Source of the DNA: Arenicellaceae bacterium
GTDB taxonomy: Bacteria > Pseudomonadota > Gammaproteobacteria > Arenicellales > Arenicellaceae
NCBI GenBank assembly: GCA_029246505.1
Contig: JAQWNC010000003.1
Coordinates: forward strand, 62,001 to 126,000
Direction of reading: 5' to 3'
Length of the DNA stretch: 64,000 nucleotides
The notes beneath the pieces were generated by a model. It worked only from the letters and a program-made list of their open reading frames with translations. It was not told the DNA's origin and made no database searches. This document shows positions 327 to 34,443 of this stretch, piece by piece; position 1 is the stretch's first letter; each line of letters begins with the position of its first letter. Position numbers and translations under genes: made by a program.

Positions 327-510
327 CCAATTTTTTCGTACTCCCCGACTGCTAATGGTCGTTTAATTAATCTAACGTTTATCTTTCAAAGCCCAAAATT
401 CGCACGAGTAGTATGTTCACCGCTCTCGTTTTCGATGAAATAAGGGCTAATGTTATTATTCTCAACTATTTTAGTTTAGTTATTTCAATTGACCATAATT
501 GGCGAATTAA

Positions 511-1110
511 TTATTGGAGTGTCGCTGCAATGATGCCGTTTTCAATAATAAAGTCAGCTTGTAAACCGGATTGATTACAGGTGCCGCTACCGGTAATCGT
601 GCCAGATATTGCTGAGGCTCCAACCGACAAAAAAAGCTGCAAAGTTCCTACGCAGCGCAGATCACCATCGACCTCATCGAACGGCACGTTCGCATTAACG
701 GTCCCATTACTGATCGCGCTAGTCTCGCTATTTCCATCCACGGTTACAGTAGCTAAATTGTTTTCATCAATAACTACGGTAAACGATTCAGCAAATGGTT
801 CAGTAATCAAGCCACCGCCAACGGATATAGTCCCTGAAGCATTCCCAACATAGGTGCCTATCAAACTCGAAGGTTCGGCAGGTGATAAATTACTGGAACT
901 TGGTGTAGCCGGTGTAGCCGGTGTTGATGTGATGGTTGCTGGTGTTGATGTGATTGTGGCTAGTGTAGCTGTCGCAGCAGAACCACTACTAGCTAGAGTG
1001 GTGGTTTCCGAGGAACTCGAAGCCGATTCGGAGCCGCCACCGCTAGTGCTATCACCGCCACCGCAAGCGTACAAAAATGCCGTTAAGAGTATGATAGGTA
1101 ACTGTCTCAT
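511..1110 (-). CDS. putative lipoprotein with Thr/Pro/Ser repeat linker
   Basis: A 199-residue exported protein of unknown function. The N-terminus has a short hydrophobic segment ending in a lipobox (LYAC, Cys16), so the mature protein is probably lipid-anchored. After Gly/Ser-rich sequence comes a low-complexity linker (about residues 40-75) built from Thr-Ile-Thr-Ser-Thr-Pro-type units, then a folded C-terminal domain of about 115 residues with repeated valine/glycine beta-strand character and a Cys pair. The start is supported by AGGAG just upstream. The linker is encoded by tandem 9-bp and 21-bp DNA repeats at about 902-961. I do not recognise the C-terminal domain. Confidence 0.75.
   Translation of the reverse strand: MRQLPIILLTAFLYACGGGDSTSGGGSESASSSSETTTLASSGSAATATLATITSTPATITSTPATPATPSSSNLSPAEPSSLIGTYVGNASGTISVGGGLITEPFAESFTVVIDENNLATVTVDGNSETSAISNGTVNANVPFDEVDGDLRCVGTLQLFLSVGASAISGTITGSGTCNQSGLQADFIIENGIIAATLQ
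902..961. repeat. tandem 9-bp and 21-bp repeats in lipoprotein linker
   Basis: GGTGTAGCC occurs twice back to back (902-919). A 21-bp unit beginning GGTGTTGATGTGAT follows in two near-identical copies (920-940 and 941-961). The repeats are in frame and encode the Thr/Pro/Ile linker of the lipoprotein, so length changes by slippage would keep the frame. Confidence 0.8.
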
Positions 1111-1217
1111 GGGGCTTCTCCTGAATAGGGATTACCTATATTTTAAATATATAAATCCAATTTAACAGAAACTTATATAATATATCAAGTTTTTACTTTA
1201 ATATGGGAACCCAACTG

Positions 1218-3068
1218 TTAATAAAATAGATTAAGAAGTAAAACAGTTACTACCAAAAATAAAATGGTCATTCCTCCACCAGCACGCAAAAAATCTAATA
1301 CTCGGTATCCGGCCGGCCCCATAATAAGAGCATTAACCTGATGTGTCGGGATTAAAAACGAGTTAGACGCACATAACGCTACGGTCAACGCGAACATCGC
1401 AGGATTAGCCCCCACCCCCAAAGCTATTTGAATTGCGATAGGTACTAACAATACTGTCGCACCTACATTGGACATAACCAATGTAAATATGGTCGCTAAT
1501 GTACCCAGAGCAAACTGAACTTGCAAAACCGAAGCACCATCTAAAATATACAAGGCCTCGGATGCCAGCCAGGCTGCGGCACCTGTGGTTTCCATCGCCA
1601 AACCAAGAGGAATCAAACAGGCCAACATAAAGACCGTCTGCCAACTAATTGCCGCATAAGCCTCATCAATTTGAATGACGCCCGTAAGAATCATCCCGAT
1701 TGCCCCAGCCATCAGAGCAACTGACAAAGGTAAGGCAGTAAAAAGCACTAAGCCAATGGCTAGTGTGAAACACACGGATGCATAGATTAGTTTATTAGGT
1801 CTAAACGTTTCGCGAGGAAAATCAGTTACAACAGCAAAATCTCTACTATCTGTAACAGCAGTCAATTCGTGCCATCGTGAATGCAGAAGTAAGGTATCGC
1901 CCGCTTGTAATTCAACGCTCGAGATATTTTCGTCGATAACATGATCAATTCGATATATCGACAATATTCGAGCGCCGTATCTACGTCGAAACTGTAATTC
2001 CGAAATCGATTTCCCAATAAGCTGAGATTCCGGTGGTATTACTACCTCAGCTATTCCCGCGTTAGTCACACTCAATATTTCCGCAAACTTATTCAAATGC
2101 GCCTCTACTTCGAGGCCATGTTGTTCAGCATAAGGGAGAACTGATTCTGCCGGCCCCATAATTGCCAGCACCGAGCCTGCCCGTATCTCAGTCTCTTGTG
2201 GGGGCGTAATCTGGGTTGAGTCTTGATTGCTAATCCCTAGAATCCAACCGTCTCGACCGCGGGCCTCTATTTCACCTAACATCTTGCCACATAGGCCACT
2301 TTCTTCAGTTACCGTGACTTCCCAGGTACGAGAATAAATGCCGTACATATCGCTAAAATATTGCAGCATCTCCGGCTTCTTACCCTTGCCTGCACCAACC
2401 GGTAACAGCCATTTACCTAGGAACTGAAAGTAAGTAGTGCCAATGAGCACTAAGGTAAGTCCAATTGGAGCAACCGCAAATAATCCATATGGCTCCATAG
2501 TTTCTACGTTCATTGGTAAACTACGATTCGCAGTAAGCAGTAAATCATTGAGCAAGATCAGAGGGCTGGAACCAATCATGGTAAGCGTCCCACCAAGAAT
2601 AGCGCTAAAACCCATCGGCATTAACAAACGTTTTACCGGTATTCCCGTACGTCTGGAAATACGATTTACCACTGGTAAAAATAACGCAGCAGCGCCTATG
2701 TTCTGCATGAAACTGGAAACAAATGCTACTGAACTACTAATCGTTCCAATAATTCGCGATTCAGTTCGACCACCGTAGCGCAAAATATAAGATGCAAGGG
2801 TCCCCATAACACCCGTTTTATCCAGCCCCGCGCCAATAATCATCACCGCTATAATTGACATAACCGCGTTACTGGAAAACCCATCAAATAGAAAGCGGAC
2901 CGGCACCAGCCCTTCGTAGTCGGAAATCAAACTGGAAAGGCCCAGTAACACGAGAACCAAGAGTGCGGTTACATCCACTCGAACCACTTCAAACGCAAAC
3001 AGCAAGACCGCCAAACCTAAAAGCATCAAGATTGCGATGATCTCGGTATTTAAGGCGACTAATTCCAT
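1218..3068 (-). CDS. SLC13-family permease with two RCK_C domains
   Basis: A 616-residue inner-membrane transporter. Two hydrophobic halves (about 1-230 and 430-616) flank a soluble middle (about 240-420). The middle holds two TrkA-C/RCK_C-type modules, each with the usual pattern of a hydrophobic strand, 'G..L.EI' and a 'AGD/AGS.L...G' segment. This is the layout of the SLC13/DASS group of sodium-coupled sulfate or dicarboxylate permeases with regulatory RCK_C inserts. The substrate cannot be read from the sequence; sulfate, arsenite or dicarboxylates are all possible. It is divergent from a second member of the same family, with a shared 216-bp intergenic region. Confidence 0.85.
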   Translation of the reverse strand: MELVALNTEIIAILMLLGLAVLLFAFEVVRVDVTALLVLVLLGLSSLISDYEGLVPVRFLFDGFSSNAVMSIIAVMIIGAGLDKTGVMGTLASYILRYGGRTESRIIGTISSSVAFVSSFMQNIGAAALFLPVVNRISRRTGIPVKRLLMPMGFSAILGGTLTMIGSSPLILLNDLLLTANRSLPMNVETMEPYGLFAVAPIGLTLVLIGTTYFQFLGKWLLPVGAGKGKKPEMLQYFSDMYGIYSRTWEVTVTEESGLCGKMLGEIEARGRDGWILGISNQDSTQITPPQETEIRAGSVLAIMGPAESVLPYAEQHGLEVEAHLNKFAEILSVTNAGIAEVVIPPESQLIGKSISELQFRRRYGARILSIYRIDHVIDENISSVELQAGDTLLLHSRWHELTAVTDSRDFAVVTDFPRETFRPNKLIYASVCFTLAIGLVLFTALPLSVALMAGAIGMILTGVIQIDEAYAAISWQTVFMLACLIPLGLAMETTGAAAWLASEALYILDGASVLQVQFALGTLATIFTLVMSNVGATVLLVPIAIQIALGVGANPAMFALTVALCASNSFLIPTHQVNALIMGPAGYRVLDFLRAGGGMTILFLVVTVLLLNLFY

Positions 3069-3145
3069 TACTTAGGTGATGCTTTGGCTTTAATTCGGCG
3101 TTGCTTCGATAATCATTAGTTATAACTTACGCCTTGTGAACGGCG

Positions 3146-3173
3146 TTAAGGTTATACCCAAGTTTAACCTTAA
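3146..3173. promoter_or_regulatory. inverted-repeat operator candidate between divergent permeases
   Basis: A perfect 9-bp inverted repeat TTAAGGTTA / TAACCTTAA with a 10-bp spacer, so half-site centres are about 19 bp apart (two helical turns). It sits in the shared promoter region of the two SLC13 genes, 78 bp from one start and 112 bp from the other. A second, imperfect repeat (CTTACGCC / GGCGTTAAG) overlaps it on the left. The regulator is unknown. Confidence 0.45.
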
Positions 3174-3284
3174 GCCATGTATCGGTGTGACAAATCTTAA
3201 ACTCAATTCCATAACACCTGCACGACGAACTGATGATAGGATTTAACCCATAGACTTATAAAGGGTTCAATTTCCACATTTAAT

Positions 3285-5117
3285 ATGCTTGATCTTCCTC
3301 TAGTACCCAATGAACATGCCCTGTTTGCACTTCTGCTGACGCTATTTGCGCTAATTTTATTTTCGCGCGATCGTATTCCACTGGAATCTTCAAGCCTGAT
3401 TATCATCGCTGTTCTTACTCTGACATTTACATTATGGCCCTATGGGGTAGGCAGTAATCGACTAGACCCAACACTGTTTTTTACTGGCTTTGGACATCAG
3501 GCGCTAATAGCGGTCTGCGCACTTATGGTTGCCGGCCATGGACTTGTGCGCACCGGGGCGCTAGAACCCGTTGGCAGATCGCTTTCTAAGTTATGGAGTA
3601 TTAGCCCGGCATTATCTCTTATATCAACGCTGATAATTGCTGCAGTTCTCAGCGCATTTGTAAACAACACTCCTATTGTGGTTTTGTTATTACCAATCTT
3701 GATCAGTGTTTCTATTCGCACTAATACTCGTGCCTCGGGCATTCTCATGCCAATTGGTTTTGCCACTATTCTTGGTGGTATGGCCACGACTATCGGAACT
3801 TCTACAAACTTGCTGGTTATAAGCGTCGCCGCAGACCTTGGCTTGCCAAGGATCGGTATGTTTGACTTTTTTGCGCCAGCATCAATTGTTGCTGGTGTGG
3901 GAATTTTATATTTATGGCTAATTGCACCACGCCTTCTACCGGAACGCGAAGCGGCGATGCCAGATGCCTCACCACGCTTATTTACCGCCCATATCAAAAT
4001 TCCAAAAAGTTCCTTTGCGGATGGAAAAACCATTCGTGAACTTATTGAGAAAACTGGTGGTCGACTGCAAGTATTACGAATTCGAAAATCAGAGCAAACT
4101 TATATCTTTCCGCTTCCGGATGCGACGGTCCGAGCGGAAGACCGATTACTAGTGCGGGACACGCCGCAAAACTTAAAGGAATTTGAAACAATTCTCGAAG
4201 GCCAGCTATTCTCTGGCGAGCACATGGTTGACGAAGAGAACCCGCTCAGCGATGAGGACCAGCACCTTGCAGAAATCGCGATTGATCGTGGATCCCCATT
4301 AGCGCATCGCACACTGAACGATTGGCGATTTGCCGACACCTATCAGGTAGTCACTCTGGCAATTCACCGCAAAGGCCGAGTGCTTGAGAGCATGCCTAGT
4401 GGCATCGGAAAAATTCGATTACGCTTAGGTGATGTGCTGCTAGTGCAGGGTTCGCACGAAAGCATAGAAGAACTAAAACGCCGTGGACATTTTTTAGTCT
4501 TGGACGCAACAACTGAACTTCCGCATACACACAGAGCAACACGCGCATTAGGCATAATGTCACTAATAGTTATTACCGCAGCACTAGGCATTCTACCTAT
4601 AGCGGTAAGTGCAACCTGTGGAGCTCTGTTAATGCTGATAACCAATTGCCTGGATTGGCGTGATATTCAACGTGCGCTAAGCGCTCAAGTGATATTTATA
4701 GTTGCCGCGAGTTTGGCTTTAGGGAATGCATTAATCCTGACAGGTGCCACCGAATATCTTGCCAGCAGCTTTATAGTGTTAACCAGTGGCCTTTCAACCC
4801 ACGGTATTTTTTCTGGATTGGTCATTCTAATGGCTCTGCTCACCAATATAGTATCGAACAATGCTGCAGCAGTAATTGGTACCCCAATTGCGGTAAGCAT
4901 TGCTCAAAACCTTAACCTACCGCCTGAAGCCTTTGTGCTAGGCGTGTTATTTGGCGCAAATATGAGTTTTGCGACCCCAATGGCCTATCAAACCAATTTA
5001 TTGGTTATGAATGCTGCCGGTTACAGTTTTAGCGATTTTGTGAAAGTTGGTGTGCCGCTAACTATATTATTATGTGCAGTAGTATCCTGGGTCATCCCAG
5101 CAATGTACCAATTTTAA
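3285..5117 (+). CDS. SLC13-family permease with two RCK_C domains
   Basis: A 610-residue inner-membrane transporter paralogous to the divergent gene. Membrane halves (about 1-220 and 420-610) surround two RCK_C-like modules (about 230-320 and 330-410; the second has the RLGDVLLVQG signature). The N-terminal half has FVNNTPIVVLLLP and the C-terminal half has LTNIVSNNAAAVIGTP. These paired 'NN/NT-P' re-entrant loops are the substrate and Na+ sites of the SLC13 fold. The two neighbours are clearly different in sequence, so this is not a recent duplication. The substrate is unresolved. Confidence 0.85.
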   Translation: MLDLPLVPNEHALFALLLTLFALILFSRDRIPLESSSLIIIAVLTLTFTLWPYGVGSNRLDPTLFFTGFGHQALIAVCALMVAGHGLVRTGALEPVGRSLSKLWSISPALSLISTLIIAAVLSAFVNNTPIVVLLLPILISVSIRTNTRASGILMPIGFATILGGMATTIGTSTNLLVISVAADLGLPRIGMFDFFAPASIVAGVGILYLWLIAPRLLPEREAAMPDASPRLFTAHIKIPKSSFADGKTIRELIEKTGGRLQVLRIRKSEQTYIFPLPDATVRAEDRLLVRDTPQNLKEFETILEGQLFSGEHMVDEENPLSDEDQHLAEIAIDRGSPLAHRTLNDWRFADTYQVVTLAIHRKGRVLESMPSGIGKIRLRLGDVLLVQGSHESIEELKRRGHFLVLDATTELPHTHRATRALGIMSLIVITAALGILPIAVSATCGALLMLITNCLDWRDIQRALSAQVIFIVAASLALGNALILTGATEYLASSFIVLTSGLSTHGIFSGLVILMALLTNIVSNNAAAVIGTPIAVSIAQNLNLPPEAFVLGVLFGANMSFATPMAYQTNLLVMNAAGYSFSDFVKVGVPLTILLCAVVSWVIPAMYQF

Positions 5118-26686: not shown

Positions 26687-27125
26687 CTAATGTTGTGGGG
26701 CAGAGAAAGCCTGCAGATCTTCGGCAGTCGCGCTTCCCTGCGGTGCGTAGAACGTCACAAAATTACCATTCGGAAGTAAAACATGCGTGACCCGCAACAT
26801 CGTTACACCGTCACGCCCAGGATTACCTATTAAAGTTAGCCTGTCACCAGGGTTAATTTCTCCACCTAGTACGCCATTTCTACGCATCATATTGTTTGCC
26901 GGCAGCTCAGCGACCCATTCTTTTACAGCACCATTCTCATCGGCCATAGTATAAACCAAGCGACCATGTGGATTAACGGGTGTATATGAAACAGCCGTTG
27001 CGTCGGTATGCACTACACGTTCGCGCATATCAAAATAGTAAAGGGTTGTGATGAGCCAGTGCTGCGGAAAGACTTACAAACAGCATAAAGGTCACAGAAG
27101 CTAAAACCATATTCGGCCTAGCCAT
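26687..27125 (-). pseudogene. DUF6152 gene with single-base frameshift
   Basis: The ATG at 27125 overlaps the upstream stop (TGATG). It starts a signal peptide MARPNMVLAS...SAALAHHN and then hits TGA after LLF. Removing one C from the CCC at 27043-27045 (coding strand) restores HHNLYYFDMRERVVHTD and continues through VNPHGRLVYTM and INPGDRLTLIGNPGRDG to TAA/TGA at 26687. The repaired product is 145 residues, equal to the upstream paralogue. So either this is a fresh one-base frameshift or a sequencing error. It is the last gene of a three-gene operon. Confidence 0.78.
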
Positions 27126-27562
27126 CATTCACCCGAACGAGTAATTCCTGCATTAGCACCAACAAGCTGAGCAACGTCGCCATTTTCGAAGTCAACTCGT
27201 GATAAACGCATGAAATTTGTACCACTCCGCGCTGGAGACCCAGTTACCGTCTTCAATTTATCACCAGGTTTTAATATCGCACCACCAAGACCAAGCCGAC
27301 GAAGATTATTCGAACTTGCCAATTCTCCAGTCCATTCCTGTTGGACACCCGCCTCGTCATTAAATTTATATGTTAAACGACCATGAGGATTTACAAGTAC
27401 GTATTCAACCACTATCGCATCGTGCTGAATTATTTCCACTTCTAGATCGAAGTATGCAACACCACTGTGGTGTGCCATTGCAGGAAACCCTATTAAAACC
27501 CCAAGCGCTACTATGAAAATCGCTATTCGGTATTCTTTAAATGTTGTTTGCATATTGAACAT
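27125..27562 (-). CDS. secreted DUF6152 protein
   Basis: A 145-residue exported DUF6152 protein. The signal peptide ends PAMAHHS, followed by VAYFDLEVEIIQHDAIVVEYVLVNPHGRLTY, EWTGELASSNNLRRLGL and LKPGDKLKTVTGSPARSG. It starts 3 nt after the stop of the stand-alone second-domain gene and ends by overlapping the next DUF6152 gene, so the three are one operon. In the NPHG...EW...N.LRR.G...PGD pattern it is closest to its frameshifted neighbour, suggesting local duplication. Confidence 0.82.
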   Translation of the reverse strand: MFNMQTTFKEYRIAIFIVALGVLIGFPAMAHHSGVAYFDLEVEIIQHDAIVVEYVLVNPHGRLTYKFNDEAGVQQEWTGELASSNNLRRLGLGGAILKPGDKLKTVTGSPARSGTNFMRLSRVDFENGDVAQLVGANAGITRSGE

Positions 27563-28408: not shown

Positions 28409-30628
28409 CTAAAAGCGAAACTGCGCTCCAACGGAGAGTGTTCTAGATTTATTCGGGCGCGCGCCATAAGGCTGACGGCCCATAATATCTTGTTCATCAG
28501 TTAAGTTTTCTACCCGAACCAGCAAACGTAGATCTTCGCTCATATTGTAAGAACCAGATAAATCAATCGTGAAATTACTATCAGTTTTTTCAAATACACC
28601 ACATGAAGCACGTGTGCATGTCGATCCAGCATACACTCCACTCAAGTAACCTGACCACTTCTCGCCCTCTAACCCTAATGCGATCTGGCCTTGATTCTTA
28701 GGAATGTACGGAAGTGGGTCACCTACCGCCACATCACCAAAAAATTCGGTATCAGCAATATCAGTATCAAACTGACTATTAATATGTGTGAATGTAAAAT
28801 TAAGGGGGACGCGAATACCGTTAAACTCAGCCAATTGTGCTTGTATCATTAACTCAACACCCTTAACGGTAGCGGCATCACCATTAAATGCACTCCCAAT
28901 CTCACAATTACTCCCAGAAGAAGATGTGCACTCACCAACGAGATTTTTATAATCACTCATGAATAATATCGCTTCTGCATTCAGTGTATTATTTGCATAG
29001 CGCAACCCAAATTCATAATTTAACGCTTCTTCTTCTTTGGCACCCGGTGAATTGCTTGGCGCAGTAAAACCCTTATGCACCCCTGCCACTAATGTTGTAC
29101 GATCACTCAATTTGTATAAGGCTCCGATACCCGGCAAAACTACATTTGTATTATTTTCTCTATCATCTCTAAAAGTACGTTGTGCACCATTACGATAGCG
29201 GGTACGTTTTTGATCAATATCTTCAAAACGCAATCCTGGTGTAAACGTCCAGTTTCCCAACTCAATCCGATCATATATGTGCCCTGAAAGTGCTTTCGCT
29301 TCTTGCACCCGATTCCCTGCATTACCTAAAATACCTATATCGTTGAGCGCTAATTCCCCATTTATCTGCTGATAGGTACTATTACGTTGCAATCGGTCTT
29401 CTTCATCTTCGTGAAAGCGCAAGCCAGCTTCAATACTATGTGTCGCCTTACCAATCTGTGCGTCCCATTTCATACCAAATTGAATTCCACGAGAAAAGTA
29501 TTCGCGGGCATTAGAGCGCACCTGAATACTACCTTCAGCGGTATTCACACTACCATCGAGTATTCCTTGTAATTGGTCCACGCCAAATGCACCAATGGCA
29601 TTTCCATTATTTATAGAGCTAACAACTGATGACCAACTAGTCTTCTTGAAGCTCTGTGCGTTTGTACTTCCATTAAAGTCAATACCCTCTGTTTTAAACC
29701 AATTTCTCTCATGTTTATTGTTATAAGCGACAGCAGTAAATGATAAGTTTTCACTAGCCTTAAAACCATAACGCAAAATAACCTGACTATGATCAGTAGC
29801 TATATTATCGAGCTCCGACAAACCATACCGTGAGTAAGAGTCTTTCCGAAAATCAGAATCGGTTAACCCTAAATAACTCATATTTGAAGTCTGTTTGGTT
29901 GATTGCAGTTTCAACTCAACGCTATGCGCTGAATCAGTTGGTGCGTAAGCTAACTTCAATGTGTAATCTGTGACATCCAATCCAGTGTTAGAATCACTTC
30001 TGGCAATATTTTGAAACCCATCAGATTCCCACTTATGAGCTTCAAGTAAATAGCCAAAACCATTATCCAATTTGCCTCCATAAGTTCCGTGTAGACGATA
30101 TGTCGAATTTTGACCAGCCTCTACTGTAACTTGGCCAACTTGGCTTTCCGGAATGGGCGTCGAAATCATATTAAGAGCACCTCCAATAGTATAAGGACCC
30201 TGGGTAATTGCTGCAGGTCCTTTAACCACTTCAAATGCACTCATTCTTGCAGCGGTAGGAAAATAATATGCTGATGGCGCTGAATAAGGTGCAGGTGCTA
30301 TAAGTATATTATCCTCTAATAGCGTAACACGACCGCTCCGTTCAGTAGCCACACCACGAATGCTGATGTTGGGACGTAATCCATACCCATCTTCGACCTG
30401 CACTGATACACCCGGAACCTGCCTAATAATCCGTTGGATATCATGGTATCCAAATTTTTGTAATTCGGCCTCTCCAATATACTGGGCTGCACCAGCAGCA
30501 CCTTGAGCCTCGGTCTGGCTACCATAAATAGTAACTGTTTCCAAAGCAGTTTCATTCTGTCCTAATACCTGGCAACTTAATGAAGCTGCGACGATAGATA
30601 AAGGTAAAATACTAATTTTCATTTTCAA
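28409..30628 (-). CDS. TonB-dependent receptor, probable ferric-siderophore type
   Basis: A 739-residue outer-membrane receptor. The signal peptide ends CQVLGQ, followed by a TonB-box-like LETVTIYGS. The plug domain has YHDIQRIIRQVPGVSVQVEDGYGLRPNISIRG, TLLEDNI and FEVVKGPAAITQGPYTIGGALN. A 22-strand barrel ends in LSVGAQFRF with the C-terminal Phe needed for insertion. Plug sequence is of the FecA-like type that takes up ferric citrate or related chelates, but the ligand is inferred only. A Fur-box-like sequence lies about 75-100 bp upstream of the ATG and a strong terminator follows. Confidence 0.9.
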   Translation of the reverse strand: MKMKISILPLSIVAASLSCQVLGQNETALETVTIYGSQTEAQGAAGAAQYIGEAELQKFGYHDIQRIIRQVPGVSVQVEDGYGLRPNISIRGVATERSGRVTLLEDNILIAPAPYSAPSAYYFPTAARMSAFEVVKGPAAITQGPYTIGGALNMISTPIPESQVGQVTVEAGQNSTYRLHGTYGGKLDNGFGYLLEAHKWESDGFQNIARSDSNTGLDVTDYTLKLAYAPTDSAHSVELKLQSTKQTSNMSYLGLTDSDFRKDSYSRYGLSELDNIATDHSQVILRYGFKASENLSFTAVAYNNKHERNWFKTEGIDFNGSTNAQSFKKTSWSSVVSSINNGNAIGAFGVDQLQGILDGSVNTAEGSIQVRSNAREYFSRGIQFGMKWDAQIGKATHSIEAGLRFHEDEEDRLQRNSTYQQINGELALNDIGILGNAGNRVQEAKALSGHIYDRIELGNWTFTPGLRFEDIDQKRTRYRNGAQRTFRDDRENNTNVVLPGIGALYKLSDRTTLVAGVHKGFTAPSNSPGAKEEEALNYEFGLRYANNTLNAEAILFMSDYKNLVGECTSSSGSNCEIGSAFNGDAATVKGVELMIQAQLAEFNGIRVPLNFTFTHINSQFDTDIADTEFFGDVAVGDPLPYIPKNQGQIALGLEGEKWSGYLSGVYAGSTCTRASCGVFEKTDSNFTIDLSGSYNMSEDLRLLVRVENLTDEQDIMGRQPYGARPNKSRTLSVGAQFRF

Positions 30629-30934: not shown

Positions 30935-30965
30935 AAAAAAAGCCGGCGCAATGCACCGGCTTTTT
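30935..30965. terminator. bidirectional Rho-independent terminator
   Basis: GCCGG (30942-30946) pairs with CCGGC (30956-30960), flanked by A7 on the left and T5 on the right, so it works in both directions. It lies directly after the torF-type porin stop. Confidence 0.85.
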
Positions 30966-30988: not shown

Positions 30989-31732
30989 TTAGAGCTCGAA
31001 GTCAATCGCGTAGGAAATTACGAATTTAACATTGTCATTATCACGAGCCGGCGTGACCGCGAAGGAGCCATCGTCTTCTAGGTCAGTCCCGGTTATAGCA
31101 AAAGTAAAACCACTCTTGGAAGCACTGACAGCATAATCAAAGTACGAATCTGATGTACCGTTAAACGATTTCTGAAAATCGCCATCGTGGTAACCAATAT
31201 GTAGACCGAGCTCCACACCACTGGCAAGTTCGATAGCATAATCACCAGAGAGATAGTAAGTACTACCAAAACCAAAATCCTCACCTGGCCCCTCTTCCGG
31301 CTGTGCATTAGCTAGAACATTGGCCGTCGCACTGAAACCAGCATAACCAACCGAACCATAAATTTCGCCAAAGTCGAATTGAGCACCTGAATCATAGTTG
31401 TAGTACAAATAGCCAACGTCCCAAGTTAAATCTTCACCACCGGAGAAACCGAAATACAAATCATGCTCGTAAGAGTAGACATCATCGGACTCATACTGAA
31501 CATTAGATACCCAGGTACCTGCATAAAAACCGCTTTCGTCTGCATAATCAACACCGCCCTGCACAGCAGGTTCATTGGTAGATTGAGTCAGACCACGCCA
31601 GATATAATTATTAGTAAGATTCGCATTTGCTGACCACTCTGCGTGGCTCGGCGCAGACATAACGAAAGCAGCCATAGATAGTATTGAGATAGCTAGCGGC
31701 CGTTTCAGGGTGTTAATCAGCGACTTATTCAT
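30989..31732 (-). CDS. TorF-family putative porin
   Basis: A 247-residue outer-membrane beta-barrel of the TIGR02001 ('gcw_chp'/TorF) family. The signal peptide ends PSHAEWS. Typical sequence follows: LTNNYIWRGLTQSTNEPAVQGGVDY, GFYAGTWVSNVQY, YEHDLYFGFSG and a closing amphipathic strand FVISYAIDFEL. Members are often found beside glnK/amtB in proteobacteria (recalled family knowledge). That fits the promoter here, which carries a sigma-54 -24/-12 element and upstream NtrC-like sites, pointing to induction under nitrogen limitation. A bidirectional terminator follows. Confidence 0.88.
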   Translation of the reverse strand: MNKSLINTLKRPLAISILSMAAFVMSAPSHAEWSANANLTNNYIWRGLTQSTNEPAVQGGVDYADESGFYAGTWVSNVQYESDDVYSYEHDLYFGFSGGEDLTWDVGYLYYNYDSGAQFDFGEIYGSVGYAGFSATANVLANAQPEEGPGEDFGFGSTYYLSGDYAIELASGVELGLHIGYHDGDFQKSFNGTSDSYFDYAVSASKSGFTFAITGTDLEDDGSFAVTPARDNDNVKFVISYAIDFEL

Positions 31733-31806
31733 ATTTGATACTCCTAGAAATTAAAAGGTAATAAAATTTTGTTTTACAGGAAATTTAGCATCTCCTATCT
31801 CTAACT

Positions 31807-31824
31807 AAGCAAGTATCAGGCCAA
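31807..31824 (-). promoter_or_regulatory. sigma-54 (-24/-12) promoter of TorF porin
   Basis: The minus strand reads TTGGCCTGATACTTGCTT, matching the RpoN consensus TGGCACG-N4-TTGCW. It has the invariant GG and GC exactly 10 bp apart. Transcription would start near 31797, about 65 nt before the ATG. Confidence 0.8.
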
Positions 31825-31905
31825 CTTTTTAAGTGTTTGATTTATCTGAATATTTTTCGTTCTAGGGGGTTTTCAGGAAGCTTTAAGGGCTAAATGAATC
31901 TGTTA

Positions 31906-31953
31906 TGCACCAGAATCATGCGCCTATTTTTAGAACTGCACCATCTTGGCCCT
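31906..31953 (-). promoter_or_regulatory. pair of NtrC-like enhancer sites
   Basis: Two TGCACCA words lie about 100-130 bp upstream of the sigma-54 element: 31906-31924 (TGCACCA...TGCGCC) and 31937-31953 (TGCACCA-TCT-TGGCCCT). The NtrC consensus is TGCACCA-N3-TGGTGCA, so each has one perfect and one weaker half. Their centres are about three helical turns apart, as in glnA-type enhancers. Confidence 0.65.
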
Positions 31954-32907: not shown

Positions 32908-34350
32908 TTAAAACGACACATCCCACTGTAAGCGGACACGATCATCGCTATCATTTATACCGACCAATCCGTCATCGATAGTGAGATGGGAGTAGTCCAG
33001 CGTAACCTTATTGTTGTGGCTCGAGAAAAACCAGTTGAGCCCGAGCGTGTACTCTTTGCGCTCGTTATTTACCGAACGATCAGCTCTGTTAGGCTCCTCA
33101 ACATAGGCATAGCGTACGGCTAGCTCTAGGGGTGTGGGAAAACCTTCATAAAGGTTATGAAAGAAATAACCGGACTGTATATACAAGCCGCTCATGTCAT
33201 TCTCGGTACCTTCAACACGATCAATAACGTTCTTGCGGTGGTACTCCTGTTGAAAAGAAAAGCCACGATATTTGAATGCGAGTTCCTGCACCCATTGTGC
33301 AATCTTGAATTGATTACCTGCAGCCGCAGCTGGGCTGGTATACCCATCCAGATTACCGCAACCCGACGATGACCAACGTGTACAGGGTCCTTCGGTTGTC
33401 ATTCCTGCGAACGCCAGACTACCAGTTGGCTTTTCGGTAAAATCGATATCCGTTTGACGCCAAGCCAGATCACGACCCATGAAATTCCACTGTAAGCGGC
33501 CGGTATACATTAAGTTTTTATCAGCATTATTTACGCTGCGACCTTCACCATTAAAGACACCAGCGTAGTAACGCATATCTGCCCGGGTACCGTTGAAAGC
33601 GCGACCGCGTATTTGAACACCAAGCTGTCTATCAATTGTGAAAGTTCGATTGACTATTGAGCGCTCCACAAATTGCTGCCGACCGGACGAGTCAACCCGT
33701 TCACGGTTGTGGTCGATCTTCCACTGGCCCACACGAAAACCACCCCAGCCCCACTTAGCCACATCAATTCGGTAATCAATAACACGGGTAGAAGAAGATG
33801 AGGAACCATCATCCATGTTGCGGCTCGGCTGCAGGTCCACCTCAAAGTAGTATTTCAACCATGGCTGAAACCCATGCCCGCCAATCTTCATGCGCAGACG
33901 ACGAGCTTCAAAATTCGATCGGCCTTCATCTGCAAAATTACTCAATGACCGCGGGTCACTTCGATAAGGAGAGGTGGCCCGCACCTGCGCACGCCATTGC
34001 AAATTAGTTTGAAATTTACCGTCACTAGTCTCAAGCCGAAAGCCACTACTACCGTGGCTGGCCTTTACCGGAAATTCCTCTTCAATCTTGGCGGCTACCG
34101 CATCAGCGACAGCAGTATCAATATATTCATCGGTTTGGGTTTCCCCCGCTTGAGGTGCGAAAAAAATATCCTCAGCGGCCAATGTCTCTTTTTCCATTAG
34201 ACCGTCATACTGCTCCTGAGTAATGGCTCCGTTCTCCATCAAGACATCAAGCAGTGCCTTGTCGGCTGCATTTGCGCTGGCTATTACACCGGACAACAGC
34301 CCAGCGACAAGCGCACTTCTTACTCGTTGTTGCATTTTACGAAAACTCAT
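32908..34350 (-). CDS. phosphate-selective porin (OprP/OprO family)
   Basis: A 480-residue outer-membrane porin. The signal peptide (about 1-29, ending ASANA) precedes a periplasmic N-terminal helix region (ALLDVLMENGAITQEQYDGLMEK), then the 16-strand barrel. The sequence from LQWRAQVRATSPY through ARRLRMKIGGHGFQPWLKYYFEVDLQP is typical of PF07396 porins, and the protein ends RLQWDVSF with a C-terminal Phe. OprP-type porins import phosphate or polyphosphate. The promoter carries two tandem Pho boxes, so PhoB control under phosphate starvation is strongly indicated. The ATG at 34350 was chosen over one five codons upstream as giving the better signal peptide. Confidence 0.9.
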   Translation of the reverse strand: MSFRKMQQRVRSALVAGLLSGVIASANAADKALLDVLMENGAITQEQYDGLMEKETLAAEDIFFAPQAGETQTDEYIDTAVADAVAAKIEEEFPVKASHGSSGFRLETSDGKFQTNLQWRAQVRATSPYRSDPRSLSNFADEGRSNFEARRLRMKIGGHGFQPWLKYYFEVDLQPSRNMDDGSSSSSTRVIDYRIDVAKWGWGGFRVGQWKIDHNRERVDSSGRQQFVERSIVNRTFTIDRQLGVQIRGRAFNGTRADMRYYAGVFNGEGRSVNNADKNLMYTGRLQWNFMGRDLAWRQTDIDFTEKPTGSLAFAGMTTEGPCTRWSSSGCGNLDGYTSPAAAAGNQFKIAQWVQELAFKYRGFSFQQEYHRKNVIDRVEGTENDMSGLYIQSGYFFHNLYEGFPTPLELAVRYAYVEEPNRADRSVNNERKEYTLGLNWFFSSHNNKVTLDYSHLTIDDGLVGINDSDDRVRLQWDVSF

Positions 34351-34443
34351 TAACCGTGTCTCCAAATATTCAAAATTGTTGTATCCATCTGCGGGTCAGC
34401 ACAAAGTGCTACCTAGGACAGAGTGCGATTTTGCTACGCGGTT

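Follow-up and report, generated by a model that had tools for sequence, protein, structure and literature searches.

A TorF-family gene under predicted sigma-54/NtrC control in an Arenicellaceae bacterium and its possible role in nitrogen uptake

The uptake of nitrogen compounds is usually described at the inner membrane, i.e. with respect to the Amt and Urt transporters. In Herbaspirillum seropedicae, the nlmA (orf1)-glnK-amtB operon, in which nlmA encodes a membrane protein of unknown function, is NtrC-dependent and induced in nitrogen limitation, with expression of an amtB::lacZ fusion rising 21-fold (PMC3023670). For Hsero_0083, also a membrane gene of unknown function, a 14-fold induction accompanying that of glnK was seen in rice roots (PMC6646362). 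Our guess is that Hsero_0083 is nlmA. Literature searches on gcw_chp, PF09694 and TIGR02001 yielded nothing useful. The TorF family takes its name from the TorR/TMAO-regulated torF of Shewanella. Here we consider a torF gene within a 64,000-nucleotide stretch of DNA (the window) from an Arenicellaceae bacterium, a gammaproteobacterium of marine type. The conserved sequences upstream of the gene make it very probable that it is under sigma-54/NtrC nitrogen-starvation control.

The torF gene (30989-31732, minus strand) encodes a 247-residue TorF/Gcw_chp family protein, with scores of 5.4e-26 and 92.4 bits against PF09694 (cut-off 24 bits) and of 1.3e-39 and 136.2 bits against TIGR02001 (cut-off 47.15 bits); it is the only Gcw_chp gene found in its genome, where it is present in single copy. 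A likely ribosome-binding site, AGGAG, is read at 31741-31745 (minus strand). A strong intrinsic terminator with a trailing U run (30935-30965, minus strand; -21.7 kcal/mol, z -4.55) is located directly 3' of the gene, such that torF is probably transcribed alone, as a single-gene unit. The transcription start is predicted at 31797 (minus strand), 12 nt downstream of the C of the -12 element, giving a leader of about 65 nt; this position is the lower coordinate of the feature described in an earlier, sequence-only reading of the locus. A search for a sigma-70 promoter upstream of torF found none, with the sole match falling within the gene. Nearby are a second outer-membrane porin gene (Porin_O_P; window positions 32908-34365, minus strand) and, on the opposite side of torF, a TonB-dependent receptor gene (28409-30628). 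Two neighbouring small proteins encoded at 26687-27562 (minus strand) resemble each other (VVEYVLVNPHGRLTY / AVSYTPVNPHGRLVY), and proteins resembling this pair are also encoded on another contig of the genome (C1; L097 6934-9292).

The sequence-only reading had proposed a -24/-12 element with GG and GC exactly 10 bp apart and, about 100-130 bp upstream, two sites with perfect TGCACCA halves. The -24/-12 element is indeed seen, as TTGGCCTGATACTTGCTT, on the minus strand of 31807-31824, with a GG-to-GC spacing of 10 bp in a TGGCACG-N4-TTGCW-like context. On a simple sigma-54 matrix, which was hand-set after the general consensus, its core, TGGCCTGATACTTGCT (GG-N10-GC; 31808-31823, minus strand), reaches 15.8 of 18.3; it departs from the most frequent base at two positions (5 and 6), and the -24 half is off consensus, with CTG for ACG. 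The full 18-mer has no second copy in the genome. On its own, however, the -24/-12 word says little, because TGGC-N7-TTGCW has 103 matches in the 2.64 Mb genome (35 for the reversed pattern).

The two upstream sites are likewise present, NtrC-like site I at 31906-31922 (plus strand, TGCACCAGAATCATGCG) and site II at 31937-31953 (plus strand, TGCACCATCTTGGCCCT). Each matches 11 of the 14 specified positions of the 17-bp NtrC consensus TGCACCA-N3-TGGTGCA, with one half being a perfect TGCACCA (31906-31912 and 31937-31943) and the other degenerate; the site I block is conserved in relatives. When the segment was dinucleotide-shuffled 300 times, a match of 11/14 arose once. The site centres are 91 bp (I) and 122 bp (II) upstream of the -24 T, corresponding to -117 and -148 from the predicted start, so the proposed distance was approximately right. 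The sites are 31 bp apart, a value that is among the commonest paired-site spacings. As a search criterion, the NtrC-type palindrome alone was rejected as too common, occurring at 58 genomic places with at most one mismatch. Between the enhancers and the promoter there is a tentative IHF-like site, AATCAAACACTTA (31830-31842, minus strand), which matches the IHF consensus WATCAANNNNTTR perfectly. Among 149 other torF promoters, 12 contain a match to the same consensus, where mononucleotide shuffling gives a mean of 1.5 and at most 6; the site counts as weak evidence.

The genome encodes the regulators that such a promoter would employ. RpoN is present (PF04552, 1.6e-64; TIGR02395 over its cut-off), and glnA, ntrB and ntrC are consecutive, with family scores over cut-off for all three products (TIGR01818 and PRK11073 identifying NtrC and NtrB). 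The glnA promoter has a textbook -24/-12 element, TGGCACGCCTTTTGCT, together with NtrC-like sites, and is thus organised in the same way as that of torF, as had been claimed when the torF layout was said to mirror glnA-type promoters; NtrC-like sites are common to glnA and torF. A composite pattern (GGTGC, 65-95 bp, TGGC-N8-TGCW) is found at 11 places in the genome, 9 of which overlap open reading frames, and solely before glnA and torF is a copy both intergenic and facing the gene. Because the composite was designed after the torF and glnA spacings had been seen, it ranks torF beside glnA and supplies no independent probability; the independent test of the torF promoter against chance is the comparison of orthologues.

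The picture at the two glnK-amtB loci of this genome is mixed. The sharing of sites that the sequence-only reading had suggested looking for holds for glnK1-amtB1, which has a -24/-12 element, TGGCATACTTCCTGCT, albeit with weaker NtrC-like sites, and holds in part for glnK2-amtB2, upstream of which there is an NtrC-like site but no recognisable -24/-12 element. The NtrC-like sequence in question is CGCACTTTTATGGTGCA, accompanied by a second half-site (L097, C1:38500-48500, upstream of 5661 on the minus strand); judging from these sequences, NtrC may act differently at glnK2-amtB2. Matches resembling TGGTTTAATAATTGCT, approximately 460 bp upstream, were rejected as promoters; they fall at the glnK start and look coding, and in the present genome TGGCTTAATAATTGCT sits inside glnK2.

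The sigma-54 activator domain has four matches in the genome, two of which are strong, i.e. NtrC and an NtrX-like protein that scores under the cut-off of its model. The existence of this second strong activator leaves room for a reading in which the sigma-54 promoter is real, but is served by NtrX or responds to another signal, with torF answering to the redox or envelope state. We consider this improbable, since the palindromes upstream of torF fit the NtrC consensus and are common to glnA, and since torF is linked to glnK-amtB in relatives. Control by NtrC remains the preferred reading, and would place torF, as a unit of one gene, in the general nitrogen-starvation regulon (NtrB/NtrC, sigma-54).

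Comparison with relatives bears directly on whether the promoter is genuine. When the region upstream of torF is aligned with those of ten close orthologues, the blocks of conservation coincide with the two enhancer halves and with TTGGC...TTGCT; it is thus the -24/-12 element and the GCAC/GTGC blocks, conservation of which the proposal had been staked on, that are the conserved parts. Among the 25 torF genes of the nearest 20 torF-bearing genomes, 19 have an upstream site scoring at least 15, with a twentieth, TGGCACGATTTCTGCT, being added on correction of a start codon (relative G032; L020/L111); some start codons in the upstream scans were guessed. Loci within each of the sets compared here are interrelated, so that the counts do not represent independent events. 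In a class sample of 184 genomes, 94 of which have Gcw_chp genes, a sigma-54 site scoring at least 14 precedes 44 of the 85 torF genes for which upstream sequence was available, compared with 5 of 297 control genes from these loci, and is seen both in the glnK/amtB-linked genes (20/37) and in the unlinked ones (24/48). Approximately half of the class-wide Gcw_chp genes are without a strong site, and sigma-54 control is therefore not a family-wide rule. RpoN is encoded in 87 of the 94 torF genomes and in 62 of 90 others (Fisher p 5e-5, a value that is indicative only, the genomes being related).

In a tree of torF sequences, made by a quick method with SH-aLRT support only, the present gene is separated from the amtB-linked genes of its own family and falls with three other stand-alone genes in a clade with full support. 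A scan for this subfamily yielded 80 loci, from Alteromonas, Salinimonas, Luminiphilus, other Halieaceae and many gammaproteobacterial MAGs. In 77 of the 80 the best site is a GG-N10-GC element scoring at least 8.5, which is the case for 23 of 487 upstream regions of control genes; with the limit raised to 14 the figures are 31/80 and 1/487. The Alteromonas sites have a divergent yet constant form, GGGCATC...TTGCG, and the genes neighbouring torF in Alteromonas look like housekeeping genes. NtrC-like palindromes (at least 11/14) are found in 40 of 79 subfamily promoters, whereas 200 permuted palindromes gave a mean of 0.2 and a maximum of 3; among torF promoters lacking a sigma-54 site, NtrC palindromes are not enriched (1/22). 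It could be argued, from the frequency of the TGGC-N7-TTGCW word in the genome, that the -24/-12 and TGCACCA words in this AT-rich intergenic region arose by chance. Such an origin is extremely improbable, given the conservation at the same place in the 77 orthologous loci and class-wide and the restriction of the intergenic composite to glnA and torF; the orthologue comparison already contradicts it.

Gene neighbourhoods offer an indication of what an NtrC-controlled TorF might do. In all 20 of the torF-bearing relatives checked, amtB is close to a torF gene, either in the order torF-glnK-amtB or with torF divergent from glnK-amtB, often with back-to-back sigma-54 sites; class-wide, glnK or amtB is near 37 of 85 torF genes. 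The expectation that torF genes often neighbour glnK/amtB is thus borne out in the wider family, but not in the present genome, where both amtB genes are on other contigs and where we found no amtB, urt or other recognised nitrogen gene adjacent to torF; a ubiK-like gene follows glnK1-amtB1, with torF absent from that locus, and the subfamily to which this torF belongs is mostly stand-alone.

Links with urea uptake recur elsewhere in the family. Six loci in the survey have ureG- or urtA-like genes near torF, and the one that was checked by family search has the order ureG-torF-urtA-urtB. These loci (L201, L203, L207, L210, L215 and L217) are from several families and combine urease accessory or urea ABC transporter genes near torF with a sigma-54 site. 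In one relative (G007), a second torF (L103 4715-5569) is divergent from a putative urea ABC/UAAP1 operon (405-4483), with back-to-back sigma-54 sites; the putative urea ABC binding protein scores under its curated cut-off.

Other contexts are more varied. Plasmid matches of TorF have mixed gene contexts, torF being beside an ammonium transporter in Aquabacterium and in an unrelated context in Marinobacter. On plasmid pAZKH of Azoarcus sp. KH32C (L331), genes for an electron-transfer flavoprotein and an Fe-S protein precede torF, and sensor kinase genes and narL are nearby. Within 5 kb of torF in the subfamily loci (L224-L303), inspection by eye revealed a SulP-like transporter gene in 13 of 80 and a carbonic-anhydrase-like gene in 8 of 80.

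An AlphaFold2 model of TorF (62-sequence alignment) has 12 strands with a mean pLDDT of 87.4, with 174 of 247 residues being at a pLDDT of at least 90, and thus predicts a transmembrane beta barrel, as is characteristic of outer-membrane porins. Its best matches in the PDB include the intimin and invasin barrels, Tsx and KdgM, with Foldseek E values of 2.3e-5 for Tsx and 3.2e-4 for KdgM. The resemblance to 12-stranded barrels is weak, at a TM of about 0.5, and non-pores, for example intimin, are among the matches; a search of solved structures with the TorF sequence gave one weak match, a porin. The structure matches indicate a barrel rather than a substrate, and gene context says more on the role of TorF than they do. 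From that context, we give even chances to TorF admitting small nitrogen compounds (ammonium, urea or similar); such a role would agree with the amtB, urtAB and putative urea ABC operon contexts, as well as with the predicted 12-stranded barrel.

The main competing view accepts regulation by NtrC, but takes TorF, made when nitrogen is short, not to pass nitrogen compounds and to be instead a barrel with a structural, signalling or stress role or a pore for solutes in general. The many Gcw_chp genes without the promoter and in unrelated contexts are in its favour, as are the SulP-like transporter and carbonic-anhydrase-like genes that recur near torF in the subfamily, whereas the recurrent association of the family with amtB and urea uptake genes argues against it; we regard it as unlikely, though deserving of consideration.

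Taken as a whole, a model in which NtrC/sigma-54 control is combined with uptake of nitrogen compounds by TorF is, in our estimate, likely to be correct. When fixed nitrogen is short, phosphorylated NtrC would, as inferred from the conserved sequence, bind at 31906-31922 and 31937-31953 and activate RpoN polymerase waiting at 31808-31823, perhaps with IHF helping to bend the DNA. Transcription would begin at approximately 31797 and end at the terminator behind torF. The product is predicted to be exported and to fold as a 12-stranded outer-membrane barrel, and, as gene context suggests, may raise the permeability of the outer membrane to ammonium, methylamines or urea, so supplying Amt, Urt or similar transporters of the inner membrane. 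The relatives checked have torF linked to glnK-amtB, whereas the present lineage, with a different subfamily on the tree, would use a stand-alone form. More tentatively, and with somewhat less than even confidence, NtrC-controlled TorF proteins may be dedicated outer-membrane pores for small nitrogen compounds that work with Amt (ammonium) or Urt (urea) across Gammaproteobacteria in the wide sense, with the present genome having the stand-alone version. A widespread outer-membrane barrel that shares the starvation switch of these transporters and is repeatedly found beside them would provide Gcw_chp, a family without a settled function, with a testable role, and would suggest that cells alter the permeability of the outer membrane at times of ammonium or urea scarcity, a condition encountered in the sea.

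With respect to known systems, torF resembles glnA-type sigma-54/NtrC promoters in having two NtrC-like sites approximately 30 bp apart above a -24/-12 element, but differs in that the gene controlled is for an outer-membrane protein and in that each NtrC-like site has one perfect half. Tsx and KdgM, the substrates of which are nucleosides and oligogalacturonate, respectively, have 12 strands, as predicted for TorF; however, identity with TorF is about 10% and the TM about 0.5, and the intimin and invasin barrels have similar scores. Among the putative porins of the TorF family (TIGR02001/Pfam Gcw_chp), the present protein passes both cut-offs, yet its subfamily is separate on the tree from the amtB- and urea-linked members. 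In H. seropedicae, nlmA holds the place that torF has ahead of glnK-amtB in many of the surveyed genomes, the two being matched by operon position only. Since an NtrC-dependent nlmA ahead of glnK-amtB has been published (PMC3023670), the regulation of torF may not be new and, by this analogy, NtrC control of a TorF protein may already be known in substance. The present torF differs from nlmA in standing alone, with its own promoter and terminator, and it is this stand-alone unit, together with the breadth of the association, that our analysis adds.
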